Shown: piece by piece, positions 6,945-50,037 of the stretch
Position numbering within the stretch: the stretch's first letter is position 1
Layout: each line of letters opens with the position of its first letter
Source of the DNA: Kumtagia ephedrae
Lineage (GTDB): Bacteria > Pseudomonadota > Alphaproteobacteria > Rhizobiales > Rhizobiaceae
DNA: 50,037 nt
Assembly (NCBI RefSeq): GCF_003012745.1
Contig: NZ_PXYK01000038.1
Location: 1 to 50,037 of the forward strand
Reading direction: 5' to 3'
Position numbers and translations under genes: made by a program
Notes under the pieces: model-generated
The model's input: the letters and a program-made list of their open reading frames with translations, nothing else
Database searches by the model: none
What the model was told of the DNA's origin: nothing

Positions 6945-7140
6945 CGACCGTAAGCGATTCGAACTTTTTCACCGCCACATATCGCCGTTTATATGCTTTT
7001 TTCACACCCAGGCCATTTCCCGCTCTTCACATGGGCGTAGTTTCGGCGGCCATAGCGTACTGCAGAGGGTAATCGGCGGTATCTGGCGCGCCGTATCAGG
7101 TGAAGATGATAAATACATCTACGCTATAGCCCTCTAAATT
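6945..7140 (+). repeat. Intergenic repeat, copy 1 of 3 (about 196 bp)
   Basis: This copy begins CGACCGTAAGCGATTCGAAC and ends TCTACGCTATAGCCCTCTAA. The same ends, in the same orientation, bound copies at 20999-21200 and 47133-47327. Both edges (about 30 bp left and 55 bp right) are strongly conserved; the middle is divergent apart from short blocks such as CGGCGG and GGCGCGCC. No terminal inverted repeat or obvious target duplication is seen. Its right end lies 23 bp from the outer-membrane protein fragment. Confidence 0.8.
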
Positions 7141-20661: not shown

Positions 20662-20998
20662 GGATGACAGGCCCAGATCAGCGAACTTGAGCGGCTTCCA
20701 CTCGACAAAGCACGCTGCGAAACAGCGGGAGAACTAAAACCTGGCCGAGGCCGACATCTTGACTGCTGCCACTATCATCCCGACTTTTACCGGCAAGGGC
20801 GGCGACGACAATGGCAACTCGCCAACATTCAAAGTCGAGGTTAGGCCCTTGGCACATCGCACTAGAAAGGCATCGCAGGCAGTCGGTTAAACGTCCCCTT
20901 GTGGGTGTCTTAGGTATCCCCTCGAACGACTGAATTGGGGGCGCAAAGCTGCCATCCAACGCCGATGCGTGCTCCGCCTTGGGCCAAAATACGTCATT
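20662..20998. other. Gap before repeat copy 2
   Basis: I see no supportable gene or hairpin. The frames are broken and the composition does not look coding. Confidence 0.4.
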
Positions 20999-21200
20999 CG
21001 ACTGTAAGCGATTCGAACTTTTCATCGCCGATCACCGCCGTTACCACGCTTTTCGCCCCTGGTTGTTACCCGCTCTTTGCGCAAGCGTAGTTCCGGCGGC
21101 GATTGGCGGTAATTCTCGGTGGTGGCGTGGTGGAAATGACAGAATTGGCGCGCCGCACCGGGCGATGATGAGAACTACGTCTACGCTATAGCCCTCTAAA
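20999..21200 (+). repeat. Intergenic repeat, copy 2 of 3 (about 202 bp)
   Basis: The left edge CGACTGTAAGCGATTCGAAC and the right block GGCGCGCCGCACCGGGCGAT followed by CTACGCTATAGCCCTCTAAA match copies 1 and 3. The centre differs more and is slightly longer, with a G-rich insert (TCGGTGGTGGCGTGGTGG). Same orientation as the others. Confidence 0.8.
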
Positions 21201-43200: not shown

Positions 43201-45006
43201 ATGGCCGCCGATGCTGTTTCGCATGCCGCTGAGGCCGCCTCACATGGCGGCTTCGATCTCATTCCGGTCGTCGTGTTGCTCGGCGCGGCGGTCGTCGCTG
43301 TGCCGCTGTTCAAGCGGCTCGGCCTCGGTTCCGTGCTCGGTTATCTTGCCGCGGGATTAGTGATCGGACCGTTCGGCGTCGGCCTGTTCTCCGATACGCA
43401 ATCAATCCTGCACGTCGCCGAGCTCGGCGTCGTCATGTTCCTGTTCATCATCGGGCTGGAGATGCAGCCCTCGCGGCTGTGGTCGATGCGGGGCGAGATC
43501 TTCGGTCTTGGCCTTCTCCAGGTCGCGTTGTGCATCGGGCTGCTCACCTGTGTCGGCCTGACGCTCGGCTATTCGGTGCCTCAGAGCTTCGTCGCGGGCA
43601 CGGGCTTCGTGCTGACCTCGACTGCTATCGTCATGCAGATGCTCGAGGAGCGCCGTGCGATGGGGCTGCCGAAAGGCCGGCGGATCGTCGCGATCCTGCT
43701 GCTCGAGGACCTGGCCATCGTGCCGCTGCTGGCGCTTGTCGCCTTTCTGGCACCCGGCGGCGAAAACGCCACGCTCACCAGTCGGCTGACTGGCGTCGCC
43801 ATCGGCCTCGCGTCGATCCTTGGCTTGATCGTCGCCGGCCGCTATCTGCTCGACCCGCTGTTTCGTATTCTCGGCAAGGCCAGGGCGCGCGAGGTGATGA
43901 CGGCAGCGGCGCTCTTCGTCGTGCTCGGCGCTGCGCTCGCCATGCAACTGGGCGGCCTGTCGATGGCGATGGGGGCCTTCCTAGCCGGCGTGCTGCTGTC
44001 GGAATCTTCCTTCCGCCACCAGCTCGAGGCCGATGTCGAGCCGTTCCGCGGCATCCTGCTCGGCCTGTTCTTCCTGGGCGTCGGCATGTCGCTCGATCTT
44101 GCGGTGATCGCCGCCAACTGGCGCCTCATCCTCGTCGCCGTCATCGCCTACATGGTGCTGAAGACCATTGGCATCTATGCGGTCGCCCGCCTGTTCCGGG
44201 CTGGCAACCGGGAAGCGATCGAACGCGCCGTGCTGATGGCGCAGGGCGGCGAATTCGCCTTCGTGCTCTATGCTGCGGCCGCATCGGTCGGCATCATCGA
44301 CGGCGAGGCCAACGCCATCCTGACGGCGACCATCATCGTCTCGATGGCGGTCACCCCGCTGATGATCATCCTGCACGACCGGTTGATACCCAAGCCCGCT
44401 CCATCGATGGATGGGGTCGAGGCCGCCGAAGGCTTATCAGCCGGCGTGCTCCTGATCGGTTTCGGTCGCTTCGGCCAGATCGTCAGTCAGCCTCTGTTGG
44501 CGAATGGTTGCTCAATCTCCATCATCGAGACCGACACGGACGCCATCCGCAATGCGCAGGATTTCGGGTTCAAGGTTTATTTTGGCGACGGCGCGCGCCT
44601 CGACATCCTTCATGCCGCCGGCGCCCATGACGCCCGCCTTGTCGTCATCGCGGTCAATGACCGCGAGGCGAGTCTGAAGATCGCGGAGCTGGTCAAGGCA
44701 GAGTTCCCGCTGGTGCCGGTTCTGGCGCGCTCCTTCGATCGCGAGCATGCCATCGAACTGATCCATGCAGGCGTCGACTATCAGATCCGTGAGACCTTCG
44801 AATCGGCGCTGGCACTCGGCCAGAAGGCGCTTGAAATGATGGATGTGGACGAGGAGGAACGCGTGCGCGTGATGGAGGACGTTCGCCAACGCGATTCCGA
44901 GCGCTTCGCCCTTGAGACCGCCGACGGCATCTATGCCGGCCGCGACCTGATCCATGGCAATGCTCCAGGCAAGGGCCAGCCTACGGAGCGGGAGGCTTCA
45001 TCATGA
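43201..45006 (+). CDS. CPA2-type K+/H+ antiporter with RCK domain (KefB/KefC-like)
   Basis: A 601-residue protein. About 12 membrane helices at residues 20-395, with GYLAAGLVIGPFGVGLFS near 48 and AGVLLSESSFRHQLEADVEP near 260, the Kef signature. An RCK/TrkA-N domain follows from about 415 (LIGFGRFGQIVSQPLL, then IIETDTDAIRNAQDFGFKVY). The length equals that of KefB/KefC, whose K+ efflux is gated by glutathione adducts of electrophiles and acidifies the cytoplasm as protection. Whether this one is gated so is unproven. It overlaps the DUF924 gene by 4 bp. Confidence 0.92.
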   Translation: MAADAVSHAAEAASHGGFDLIPVVVLLGAAVVAVPLFKRLGLGSVLGYLAAGLVIGPFGVGLFSDTQSILHVAELGVVMFLFIIGLEMQPSRLWSMRGEIFGLGLLQVALCIGLLTCVGLTLGYSVPQSFVAGTGFVLTSTAIVMQMLEERRAMGLPKGRRIVAILLLEDLAIVPLLALVAFLAPGGENATLTSRLTGVAIGLASILGLIVAGRYLLDPLFRILGKARAREVMTAAALFVVLGAALAMQLGGLSMAMGAFLAGVLLSESSFRHQLEADVEPFRGILLGLFFLGVGMSLDLAVIAANWRLILVAVIAYMVLKTIGIYAVARLFRAGNREAIERAVLMAQGGEFAFVLYAAAASVGIIDGEANAILTATIIVSMAVTPLMIILHDRLIPKPAPSMDGVEAAEGLSAGVLLIGFGRFGQIVSQPLLANGCSISIIETDTDAIRNAQDFGFKVYFGDGARLDILHAAGAHDARLVVIAVNDREASLKIAELVKAEFPLVPVLARSFDREHAIELIHAGVDYQIRETFESALALGQKALEMMDVDEEERVRVMEDVRQRDSERFALETADGIYAGRDLIHGNAPGKGQPTEREASS

Positions 45007-45578
45007 TCGCCGCGCTCAGGATGCGCCCCCGAGGAGACGAGGAGCTGATTTCGGAGGTCGTCGGCTTCTGGAAGGACGCCGGGGCGCAAGGTCGGTGGTT
45101 CGACAAGGATGAGGGTTTCGATCGCATCTTCCGGGACCGCTACTTCGATCTTCACATGGCGGTCGCGGCGCGGCGACATGACGGCTGGATCGAAAACCCG
45201 AAAGGCGCGCTCGCCTTGCTGATCCTGACCGACCAGTTCCCGCGCAATGCGTTTCGCGGGACAGCGCACATGTATGCGACCGACCCATTGGCGCGGCACT
45301 ACGCCCGTCTGGCGCTCGATGCCGGGCACATGGAGCAGGTCGAGCCGGATCTGCGGCTGTTCTTCTGCCTACCCTTCGCGCATTCGGAAGATATCGCCGA
45401 CCAGGACCTATCGGTGAAACTCAATGCTCGATTGGGGCAGCCATGGCTCGATCACGCTGAAGGCCACTGCGACATCATCCGCCTTTTTGGACGCTTTCCG
45501 CACCGCAATTTCATGCTGGGCCGCGCCACAACTGCGCTGGAAGCAGAGTTTCTCGAAGCGGGCGGCTTTCAGGGATAG
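45003..45578 (+). CDS. DUF924 family protein
   Basis: A 191-residue helical protein with the family pattern ISEVVGFWKDAGAQGRWFDK, LILTDQFPRNAFRGTAHMYA, LRLFFCLPFAHSEDIADQDL and GRFPHRNFMLGR. The fold is TPR-like. Its function is unknown. Translationally coupled to the antiporter (ATGA overlap), which is suggestive but does not reveal its role. Confidence 0.92.
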   Translation: MIAALRMRPRGDEELISEVVGFWKDAGAQGRWFDKDEGFDRIFRDRYFDLHMAVAARRHDGWIENPKGALALLILTDQFPRNAFRGTAHMYATDPLARHYARLALDAGHMEQVEPDLRLFFCLPFAHSEDIADQDLSVKLNARLGQPWLDHAEGHCDIIRLFGRFPHRNFMLGRATTALEAEFLEAGGFQG

Positions 45579-47000: not shown

Positions 47001-47132
47001 TGATTACACGAGCGGCGAATTGGTGTCGGCGCCTGGATCCGCCCCGTTCACACATTTAGCTACCTCAGACAGCGTGCTGATGGGGCGATGCCACATAGAT
47101 TTCCGACGTCAGGGACAGCCAAATGCGTAGTT

Positions 47133-47327
47133 CGACCGTAAGCGATTCGAACTTTTTCACCGCCGAACGCCGTCGTTTCTACGCCATCTCGCGCACCGAC
47201 TGTCCTTCATTCTATGCATAGGCGTACGTTCGGCGGCTACAGCGTATTGTGGAGGGCAATCGACGGTATTTGGCGCGCCGCACCGGGCGATGATGATAAC
47301 TTTGTCTACGCCATAGCCCTCTAAATT
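47133..47327 (+). repeat. Intergenic repeat, copy 3 of 3 (about 195 bp)
   Basis: The left edge CGACCGTAAGCGATTCGAAC and right edge GGCGCGCCGCACCGGGCGAT, then CTACGCCATAGCCCTCTAAA, match copies 1 and 2. GGAGGGC in the middle can pair with GCCCTC near the end. It lies between the convergent DJ-1 and ATPase genes. Confidence 0.8.
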
Positions 47328-47466: not shown

Positions 47467-47490
47467 GGCGTTTCCGAATGCGGAAATGCC
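47467..47490 (-). terminator. Hairpin after the ATPase gene
   Basis: On the minus strand, GGC-A-TTTCCG, loop CATT, CGGAAA-C-GCC forms a 9-bp stem with one mismatch, starting right at the stop codon. No clear T-run follows, so termination strength is uncertain. Confidence 0.5.
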
Positions 47491-49817
47491 TAACAGCGCG
47501 CTTCAGGCGTCTCCGCGGTGGCTATTGATCCTTCTATGCCAGAGTGAATCGCGGCAGCTTCCGTCACGAGCTCGACGGCAACCGCAGCAGCTTCCTCGTT
47601 GGGGACGGGCGCGGCTTCCTCCGGTCCCATCATCATCTCGTAGTGCGCACCATGGTTGGTCGACTCGAAGATCAGCTTGAAGACTGCAAGGTAGCGGCCT
47701 ACGGTCGTATCATCGGCTGCAACATACAGGTCGTCCGCGAAGTAATGCGATCCGTCGTTGATCCACGAAAACAGCGACGCGCAGATCTGCTGGTCGCGTC
47801 CTTCGAATTTCGCGATGACGGCATCCTTGTCCATATTGCCGAGGATGGTGAAGTAGTGCTCCAGGATCCGCCGCAGGACATTCTGGATCGTCAGGTTTGA
47901 TCGGTTCGGATTCCTGACCTCGGCCCAGAGCAGTTCATATGAGGTGCGGATCGGATTCCTCTGGTGGCCTTCGACGATCGTGGCCGCTCCGGCTTTACGA
48001 ACGACCCAGAACGTCTCGTGCGTACGGCGTTCTCCTTGCTGCCGCTTCGGGTCGAAGGACACTTCCTTGTGGAAGTAGATGTTGTGGGTCAGCACAAAGA
48101 CTTGCTTCACGCGTCCGTTGCCGTCCACCGCTTCAGCCAGGACGCGCTTGATGAGCGCGCTGACGATGAAGAGCACGTCGCTGTCGAGGCTCGACACGGG
48201 ATCGTCGAAGACGACGATGCGATCGGCGTTCACGCCGCTTGCGGACGTACTGCCCCGGATCAGATGATAGAAGTACAGGAAGGTGATGAAGCTGCGTTCC
48301 CCTTCGCTGAGCGTCTCCCGGGCGTCACTCCCGTCGCCGCGGACAATAGCGTAGAACTGCTGCTTATCGCCGGCTGTCGCGAGCCTGAAGCTGGTGAAGC
48401 CAAATGACGCGAGGGTCGCGTTGATTTCGGTGACCGTGGGCTGGACGCTGGTGACCTGCTTTTCAAGGTCGGCCAATGCTGCCCGAGCGGCGGTCAGGGC
48501 CTGTGTCTTGGTCTCGATCCCGGTCGATATCCCCGTGATGGCCTTGTCGAGATTGCTCTTGGCAGTCGTGTATTGCCCAATGACGTCCTTCTTCTCGTCG
48601 GTCAGGCATTTCCAGATCTCGGAGCTGAGCGTCTTGCGCTCGGCGGCGAGATTATCGACCAGGGCATTGTGTTTCGCGATCTCGCTGTTCGCCTGTTCGA
48701 TGATGGTGGCCACCGCGGCCAAAGGCTCGGCGAGCGGCTCCAGCTTTACCGGTGTGCTGGGCTCCTTCCGCTTCCGTTCTATATGACCCTTGTTGAGGGT
48801 GATGAGCGAGCGCAGTCGATCGCAGAGGGGGCGCAGCTTCTCCACGTCGATATGCGGACTCCCGGATGCGAGAACGGCATCGATCGTGGCCAGGATTGCG
48901 TCGGCGAAAGTGCGATAGGCTTCTTCGGTGCCCGCGATCACCGCGATGTCGGCGAGGTACGTTTCGTCGAAGAAGGCGTTCAGCTTGGCCAGAAGCTCCT
49001 CGTCGAGCGGCTTCTGGCAGAACGGACATGGCGTGCCCGGTCCTTCCACGTATCGCAGTCCCTGGCGCACCCAATCGCTGTTGCCGAGGCGGCGAACGAG
49101 CGCTCCGATATCTATGTCCTCTTTGCCGACAACCTTCTTGGCGAGTACGGGCTCCTGCTCGATACCGAGCAAGTCCTCTGCGGCAATCGTTGGCACGGTC
49201 GCCAGTCGAGCGACCCCTTCGGCGAATACGGTTCGGGCGCGGGCCTTCAGATCGTCGACTGGGTGAACAGCCGCTTGATTGCCGTATGTCTCCTCGAGCA
49301 CCTTGTCGCAGAATCTCGTGCGCGAATTACGCAAACCTGTGAATGCGCCCTGGAAATGGGGATCATGCGTGGTCTTGATCTTCCAGCATTGCTCTTCGAA
49401 TGCATTGCGCAAGTCGCGAAGTTCGGCCCGCTTGCCGCTTGAGTGATCCTCGGCGCCGAGGGTTGTTTTCAGTGTGCCAATCTGGATTTCGATCTCTGCG
49501 ACCTTGGCGCGGGCTGCCTCGATCTTCTCCAGCGTGTCGGTCTGGACTTCCCCCAGAGTGAAGATACCGCGCAATTGCGGAGTGAAGTTTCGGTCAACGA
49601 AATCGCTGTTGTAGACGAGTGTCTCAAGGGGGCGAGCACCGCGCCAGTTCACGGCACAGGACGGATGTTCTGTTGGATCAGCGATGACCCGAGAGATCGT
49701 CGTCTTGCCTGATCCGTTCGTTCCGAACAGAAAGTTGATCTGGCGAAGACCGTCAAGATGCTGCGGTTGCTCCCCATAATTCGCCACTTTGGCAATGCTG
49801 ACGTCTTCAAGCATCAT
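47490..49817 (-). CDS. AAA_13 ATPase with zinc hook, RloC/PrrC-like candidate anticodon nuclease
   Basis: About 775-781 residues. In the 781-residue numbering: Walker A GTNGSGKTT (38-46), ABC signature LSEGERSF (509-516), Walker B RIVVFDDPVSSLDSD (539-553) and LTHN (582-585). The centre is coiled coil with a CPFC motif (270-273), like the Rad50 zinc hook. After the ATPase, R655-x3-E659-x37-H697 fits the catalytic pattern reported for PrrC/RloC tRNA anticodon nucleases. RloC proteins couple DNA-damage sensing to tRNA cleavage during phage attack. The start at 49817/49814 (MMLEDVSIAK) agrees with the family better than 49835. No restriction-modification genes are in view. Confidence 0.75.
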   Translation of the reverse strand: MMLEDVSIAKVANYGEQPQHLDGLRQINFLFGTNGSGKTTISRVIADPTEHPSCAVNWRGARPLETLVYNSDFVDRNFTPQLRGIFTLGEVQTDTLEKIEAARAKVAEIEIQIGTLKTTLGAEDHSSGKRAELRDLRNAFEEQCWKIKTTHDPHFQGAFTGLRNSRTRFCDKVLEETYGNQAAVHPVDDLKARARTVFAEGVARLATVPTIAAEDLLGIEQEPVLAKKVVGKEDIDIGALVRRLGNSDWVRQGLRYVEGPGTPCPFCQKPLDEELLAKLNAFFDETYLADIAVIAGTEEAYRTFADAILATIDAVLASGSPHIDVEKLRPLCDRLRSLITLNKGHIERKRKEPSTPVKLEPLAEPLAAVATIIEQANSEIAKHNALVDNLAAERKTLSSEIWKCLTDEKKDVIGQYTTAKSNLDKAITGISTGIETKTQALTAARAALADLEKQVTSVQPTVTEINATLASFGFTSFRLATAGDKQQFYAIVRGDGSDARETLSEGERSFITFLYFYHLIRGSTSASGVNADRIVVFDDPVSSLDSDVLFIVSALIKRVLAEAVDGNGRVKQVFVLTHNIYFHKEVSFDPKRQQGERRTHETFWVVRKAGAATIVEGHQRNPIRTSYELLWAEVRNPNRSNLTIQNVLRRILEHYFTILGNMDKDAVIAKFEGRDQQICASLFSWINDGSHYFADDLYVAADDTTVGRYLAVFKLIFESTNHGAHYEMMMGPEEAAPVPNEEAAAVAVELVTEAAAIHSGIEGSIATAETPEARC

Positions 49818-49877
49818 GCCCCCAGATGGCGACATTGTTGTTTACTTATCGCCAAGCCCAAGGGTGATTGAGCGTCA

Positions 49878-50006
49878 ATGAAGCAGAAAAATCAATCGCC
49901 TTCTGGCGACTGGACACCTCGAACTACCGGCATTCGCGGCGTGTTTTGTCTCGCTGAGGTGTGGCGCGGCCCGATGAGCGGCGATCGCGTCGGGTTTGGT
50001 CGATGA
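49878..50006 (+). CDS. Possible 42-aa protein at window edge
   Basis: An open frame starting MKQKNQSPSGDWTPRTTGIR and ending ...GDRVGFGR. Its stop overlaps the next ATG (ATGA), suggesting coupling. It is divergent from the ATPase gene. No family is recognised and chance is possible. Confidence 0.25.
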   Translation: MKQKNQSPSGDWTPRTTGIRGVFCLAEVWRGPMSGDRVGFGR

Positions 50007-50037
50007 GATTGCTGCTGGACGCCGATTTCGGCGTCGC
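50003..50037 (+). CDS. Start of a gene cut by the window edge
   Basis: ATG followed by codons for RLLLDADFGV up to the last base. The hydrophobic strand ending in Asp resembles the start of PIN-like (DUF5615) toxins, but 11 codons are not enough to decide. It overlaps the 42-aa frame by 4 bp, which would fit an antitoxin-toxin pair or another small operon. Confidence 0.25.
   Translation, partial: MRLLLDADFGV

Follow-up and report, generated by a model that had tools for sequence, protein, structure and literature searches.

An RloC-like zinc-hook ATPase gene with a candidate anticodon nuclease domain at the end of a Kumtagia ephedrae contig

The anticodon nuclease PrrC is silenced by EcoprrI. 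It is described as a protein of 341-416 aa, without a hook insert and linked to type Ic restriction-modification (R-M) systems (PMC2610378). RloC, known from Geobacillus kaustophilus (GkaRloC) and Acinetobacter baylyi (AbaRloC), is built of a split ABC head, a coiled coil and a CXXC motif (PMC2610378, PMC3874168), spans 658-897 aa and carries the motif R-x3-E-x36-52-H, in which a Ser often precedes the His (PMC2610378). According to the same description, RloC is usually not R-M linked, with 8/73 genes linked to a type I or III R-M system. Cleavage of the anticodon, with the wobble nucleotide excised, and DNA-dependent ATPase activity also count among the traits of RloC. Substitution of R692, E696 or H737 of GkaRloC by alanine abolished its activity, and the zinc hook was implicated in the regulation of the nuclease (PMC2610378). 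AbaRloC disrupted tRNA-Glu and tRNA-Gln, and a DNA-break inducer could activate it also in host mutants deficient in R-M (PMC3874168). RloC has also been placed among the HEPN RNases, for which an Rx4-6H motif is described (PMC3710099). In strain surveys, RloC was counted as a defence system in 17/263 strains of Streptococcus thermophilus, its function not being tested there (PMC12322248), and was found in Pseudomonas strains to correlate with phage susceptibility, not resistance (PMC12447246).

The window analysed here, a stretch of 50,037 nucleotides that is the entire contig C38 of the K. ephedrae assembly, encodes at 47490-49835, on the minus strand, one uninterrupted frame of 781 aa, exactly where the first-pass annotation had put the gene. 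We consider it very probable that this gene is a stand-alone RloC orthologue, in which a Rad50-like zinc-hook ATPase would hold back a C-terminal anticodon nuclease and DNA ends would trigger tRNA cleavage. In the protein, a helical insert carrying CPFC divides the ABC ATPase head, and R655-x3-E659-x37-H697 lies in the C-terminal region. The features are as follows.

47490..49835, minus strand: RloC-like gene, 781 aa, single open frame; matches AAA_13 (582.8 bits) and PADLOC PDC-S06 model PDLC04890 (940.9 bits)
49701..49724, minus strand: Walker A motif GTNGSGKT, residues 38-45; from the motif and its conservation in relatives
49017..49028, minus strand: putative zinc-hook motif CPFC, residues 270-273, between helical stretches; from Cys conservation and the flanking helices of the model
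48297..48311, minus strand: ABC signature LSEGE, residues 509-513; from the motif and its conservation in relatives
48183..48212, minus strand: Walker B/D-loop VFDDPVSSLD, residues 542-551; from the motif and its conservation in relatives
48081..48089, minus strand: switch histidine motif THN, residues 583-585; invariant in 82/82 rows
47859..47873, minus strand: R655-x3-E659, first two residues of the proposed nuclease triad; from conservation and alignment with R314/E318 of the PrrC row L104
47745..47750, minus strand: S696-H697, with H697 as third residue of the proposed triad; from conservation and alignment with the SH of PrrC
47643..47645, minus strand: H731, within HYEMMM; kept in 142/142 rows with a letter in the wider set described below

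The true start of the gene may be Met7 or Met8 (near 49817/49814), as the family consensus starts at about Met8.

Profile searches showed that Pfam AAA_13 spans residues 17-724, far above its gathering cut-off of 36 bits, and that PDLC04890 spans residues 8-741; its system PDC-S06 is a single-gene phage defence candidate and bears a candidate label only. The PADLOC PrrC model matched at 40.6 bits over residues 493-697, its best stretch stopping at the position of H697. All 15 NCBIfam families found up to an E-value of 0.1 scored far under their cut-offs. Set against the published description of RloC, the protein agrees in every sequence trait examined. It has the ABC ATPase motifs (Walker A, signature, Walker B and switch His), a putative CXXC hook, seen in both sequence and model, in the helical insert that splits the ATPase, a length of 781 aa, a triad motif with a spacing of x37 and S696 in front of the His, and homology to PrrC that includes the nuclease region. 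The split ATPase and the positions of R655, E659 and H697 are thus as the first-pass annotation had read them. The spacing of x(23-41) that it gave for RloC differs from the x36-52 of PMC2610378, and x37 fits the latter. Its assignment of the gene to RloC is backed by conservation and the PrrC profile match as well as by these traits.

The triad pattern by itself was discarded as evidence, being too common in shuffled and unrelated proteins: R-x3-E-x(36-52)-H occurred in 1451/2000 shuffles of the 781-aa protein and in 58/98 unrelated frames of 600-1000 aa. Within the protein itself it matches four places, only the match at residue 655 having a Ser before the His. This stricter form was found in 152/2000 shuffles of the whole protein, 33/2000 shuffles of residues 590-740 and 4/98 unrelated frames; CPFC appeared in 0/2000 shuffles of the protein and 0/98 unrelated frames. 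The weight of the case therefore rests on conservation, for which we aligned 82 rows: the window protein, 80 relatives from bacterial genome contigs and L004 from a related genome. The 80 relatives are the best 80 of 98 confirmed and were found via patterns derived from the query or its alignment, hence a non-random sample; eight self or distant loci were excluded, and shortened frames were kept unaltered. R655 and E659 are each kept in 79/80 rows with a letter and H697 in 78/79, while C270 and C273 are each kept in 81/81. In the 74 full-length rows, conservation reaches at least 97% in 100 of the 781 columns; the triad thus ranks with the best-conserved positions but shares this rank with other columns. 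The spacing between E and H is 37 in 60/74 rows and 38 in 14/74. The sole exception at all three positions is L087, a relative from a Muribaculaceae MAG (L087:10001-12190), in which R, E and H are replaced by G, G and Y and the hook cysteines and switch His are retained. Such a joint loss is the expectation if the three residues form one site. L087 is also a natural candidate for a dead nuclease.

To compare the protein with PrrC, we used the PADLOC PrrC model, which matched 22/289 genomes of the class, and aligned the proteins of the seven strongest matches (361-420 aa), whose invariant residues include R314, E318, R351 and H358 (L104 numbering). Alignment of the RloC-like family against these seven by hhalign, which used 70/74 rows of alignment A1, gave a probability of 95.1% and an E-value of 3.3e-8 over residues 501-726, in a register that puts R655 on R314, E659 on E318 and SH on SH. 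The ATPase tail and the nuclease residues therefore align with those of PrrC, but the Arg that stands seven residues before the His in PrrC has no counterpart in the window protein, where the position is S690; Ser is found there in 72/79 rows with a letter. The Rx4-6H motif of HEPN RNases is likewise absent from the RloC-like branch, residues 690-692 being S, W and I. Membership of PrrC itself was rejected on the length of 781 aa, the CPFC hook insert and the weak score of the PrrC model, which gives 463.6 bits for L104, a PrrC found with that same model, compared to 40.6 for the window protein. As to the type Ic linkage of PrrC, the contig stops 202 bases upstream of the gene, and relatives of hsdM and hsdR were seen on another contig only.

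The full-length structure model has a mean pLDDT of 85.0 and a pTM of 0.59, and shows helices on either side of CPFC; residues 692-704, the loop that holds H697, have a pLDDT below 50. In a structural similarity search of the PDB, its top-ranking hits were Mre11-Rad50 heads (E 3.0e-8), which are without a nuclease, followed at lower rank by SMC-type, retron and Lamassu ATPases. The C-terminal region modelled alone (pLDDT 74.0) gave 148 PDB matches at E<=10 and 0 at E<=0.001, leaving a HEPN fold unconfirmed. Searches of the PDB by sequence or profile gave 0 matches and found no PrrC or RloC chain, so that fold comparison cannot decide on the nuclease. The structure alignments A1 and A2 included 73/81 relatives, without L004, L042, L046, L047, L052, L071, L076 and L084. 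Since the ATPase head and hook layout are those of Rad50/SbcC, and since SbcC-type and recombination endonuclease subunits are among those viral matches that carry a name, the gene could be thought to encode a DNA repair ATPase without a nuclease of its own. We regard this as extremely improbable, because the protein has a conserved extra C-terminal region that aligns with PrrC and, in the description of PMC2610378, has no equivalent in Rad50/SbcC, and because its occurrence is sporadic, with a match of any strength in 6/101 genomes including its own.

The first-pass annotation had pointed to the lack of a visible restriction partner. This is true of the window, but the suggestion that it is a distinctive state was rejected: HsdM, HsdS or HsdR relatives occur in 7/81 loci, the contig end at 50037 hides the upstream side, and the genome does have a type I system elsewhere. 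As RloC is rarely linked to hsd genes, in 7/81 loci here and 8/73 genes in the published set, a missing restriction partner is normal for the family. In the source genome, one N6_Mtase and one HSDR_N match, relatives of hsdM and hsdR, both lie on contig C3, where the PADLOC models for type I methyltransferase and type I restriction enzyme score 883.7 and 144 bits, respectively; the frame between these two genes is taken as a putative hsdS. An RloC whose trigger is the state of this type I system in trans, in the manner of PrrC and EcoprrI, would fit with these genes, with the seven loci that have hsd relatives within reach, with an Acetobacter plasmid relative immediately preceded by the gene for a type I subunit R, and with the interaction in trans that the authors of PMC3874168 left possible. 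We nevertheless judge such a trigger unlikely, given that 74/81 loci showed no hsd relative, though 29/81 are shorter than 15 kb and 52/81 at least that long, and that AbaRloC responded to a DNA-break inducer in R-M-deficient mutants (PMC3874168). Activation by DNA ends, as in the stand-alone RloC reading, remains the preferred one.

At the contig end, 127 bases (49910-50036), beginning 75 bases upstream of the gene, are identical to the end of contig C44 (L101:11666-11792), and DNA similarity to the copy in Aureimonas (90.6%) ends at 49913, about the same point. The stretch common to contigs C38 and C44 indicates that the assembly broke in shared sequence bordering the gene. Searched against plasmids, the 202 upstream bases gave one partial match, in Mesorhizobium. 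Within the 492 bases to the left of the gene, one stretch resembles sequence elsewhere in the genome, which confirms the neighbouring repeat reported earlier: it lies at ~47121-47327 and is 72-76% similar to window positions 6945-7140 and 20987-21200, and short matches to it occur in 12 plasmid records, from Rhizobium, Agrobacterium and others. An ARAGORN scan of the window for tRNA genes was negative, and ten other frames examined, out of 38 of at least 240 aa, encode enzymes, transporters and one domain of unknown function. One further stretch, 43254-45568, has a 71% similar copy in the same genome (G000:C4:80770-83130), and matches in the congeners G001 and G003 lie at 70-72%; the copy in the window is possibly accessory, and its 601-aa frame is presumably a KefB-type antiporter. 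The genome also has a second PDC-S06 gene, of another branch, on contig C17 (G000:C17, L091:5418-8039), encoding 874 aa with CVLC (PDLC04891, 621.6 bits); part of this second protein aligns with the window protein at ~27% identity.

The gene is absent from all three congeners examined, of which one is 85% complete; of 100 related genomes, G094 alone has a close copy (57%, the matched span containing one stop). A homologue 92% identical is present in Aureimonas fodinaquatilis (L010:1823-18087), where 6/8 neighbours have a PADLOC match at E<=1e-10, namely a type II methyltransferase, Vsr, a type II restriction enzyme, an MzaB-like protein, an SNF2-type helicase and a HamB-like helicase. Moreover, 173 plasmid records have a match, 93 of them covering at least 80% of the query, and relatives occur in 9 phage records; a search of plasmids for closely related DNA gave no match. 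This sporadic, plasmid- and phage-borne occurrence fits a mobile defence gene. The anatomy of the protein, its conservation, its relation to PrrC and its sporadic occurrence are thus directly observed.

By analogy with GkaRloC and AbaRloC, from which we infer hook silencing, DNA-end activation, tRNA cleavage and defence, the protein may work as follows. The zinc hook and the ATPase would keep the C-terminal anticodon nuclease off until DNA ends, arising from phage attack or DNA damage, engage the Rad50-like head, whereupon ATP turnover would switch the C-terminal domain on. R655, E659 and H697 would then cut one or a few tRNAs in the anticodon loop, and excision of the wobble nucleotide would stop translation. 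A suicide or antiphage action of the gene is plausible on the same analogy.

The wider set, comprising 143 distinct full-length proteins with that of the window included and with duplicates and frames below 690 aa dropped, adds relatives from viral contigs; these 80 are the best 80 of 93 confirmed, found via query- or alignment-derived patterns and thus a non-random sample. In this set, the complete triad is present in 103 proteins, R and E but no H in 28, neither the exact R-E pair nor H in 11, and H without the exact pair in one. The triad His is therefore absent in 39/143, 37 of them from viral contigs (e.g. L155, L160 and L203), a count that depends on how a variable loop, held in place by conserved flanks, is aligned. 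Among these 39 proteins, 34 keep R-x3-E or R-x3-D; all 37 from viral contigs keep both hook cysteines. Parsimony requires the His state to have changed four times on the tree. L087 aside, the 38 proteins without the His group with two others that have a His at this position (40 in all, support 0.883). Identity of this clade to the window protein is 22-31%, and the genome contigs contributed none of the 38. The clade includes a protein of Streptococcus phage Javan105 annotated as RloC, and PDLC04890 scores two of these proteins without the His at 711.8 and 718.3 bits. We make no claim that this clade is unpublished.

These proteins, together with L087, in which the scaffold persists without the textbook triad, raise the question whether the window protein is an RloC-shaped ATPase whose C-terminal domain has lost RNA cutting or has another role. 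This is very unlikely, as the full triad is present in the window protein, in its five nearest tree tips and in 103/143 proteins overall. The window gene is probably a functional RloC orthologue, and one more member of a known family rather than a new type of system. For the family, we tentatively propose, at less than even confidence, that RloC/PDC-S06 comprises at least two biochemical kinds: the R-E-H kind, to which the window protein belongs, and the viral-contig clade without the His, which perhaps lacks the known anticodon-nuclease chemistry or has H731 carrying part of it.

For annotation it is useful that the window gene adds one RloC to a genome in which another PDC-S06 gene and a type I restriction system are also present. 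If the proposal of two kinds is true, phage proteins annotated as ‘translation-disabling ACNase RloC’ would be mislabelled. In view of the clade without the His, the triad should probably be checked before a protein is named RloC, and the clade provides a natural way of testing which residues are needed for nuclease activity.
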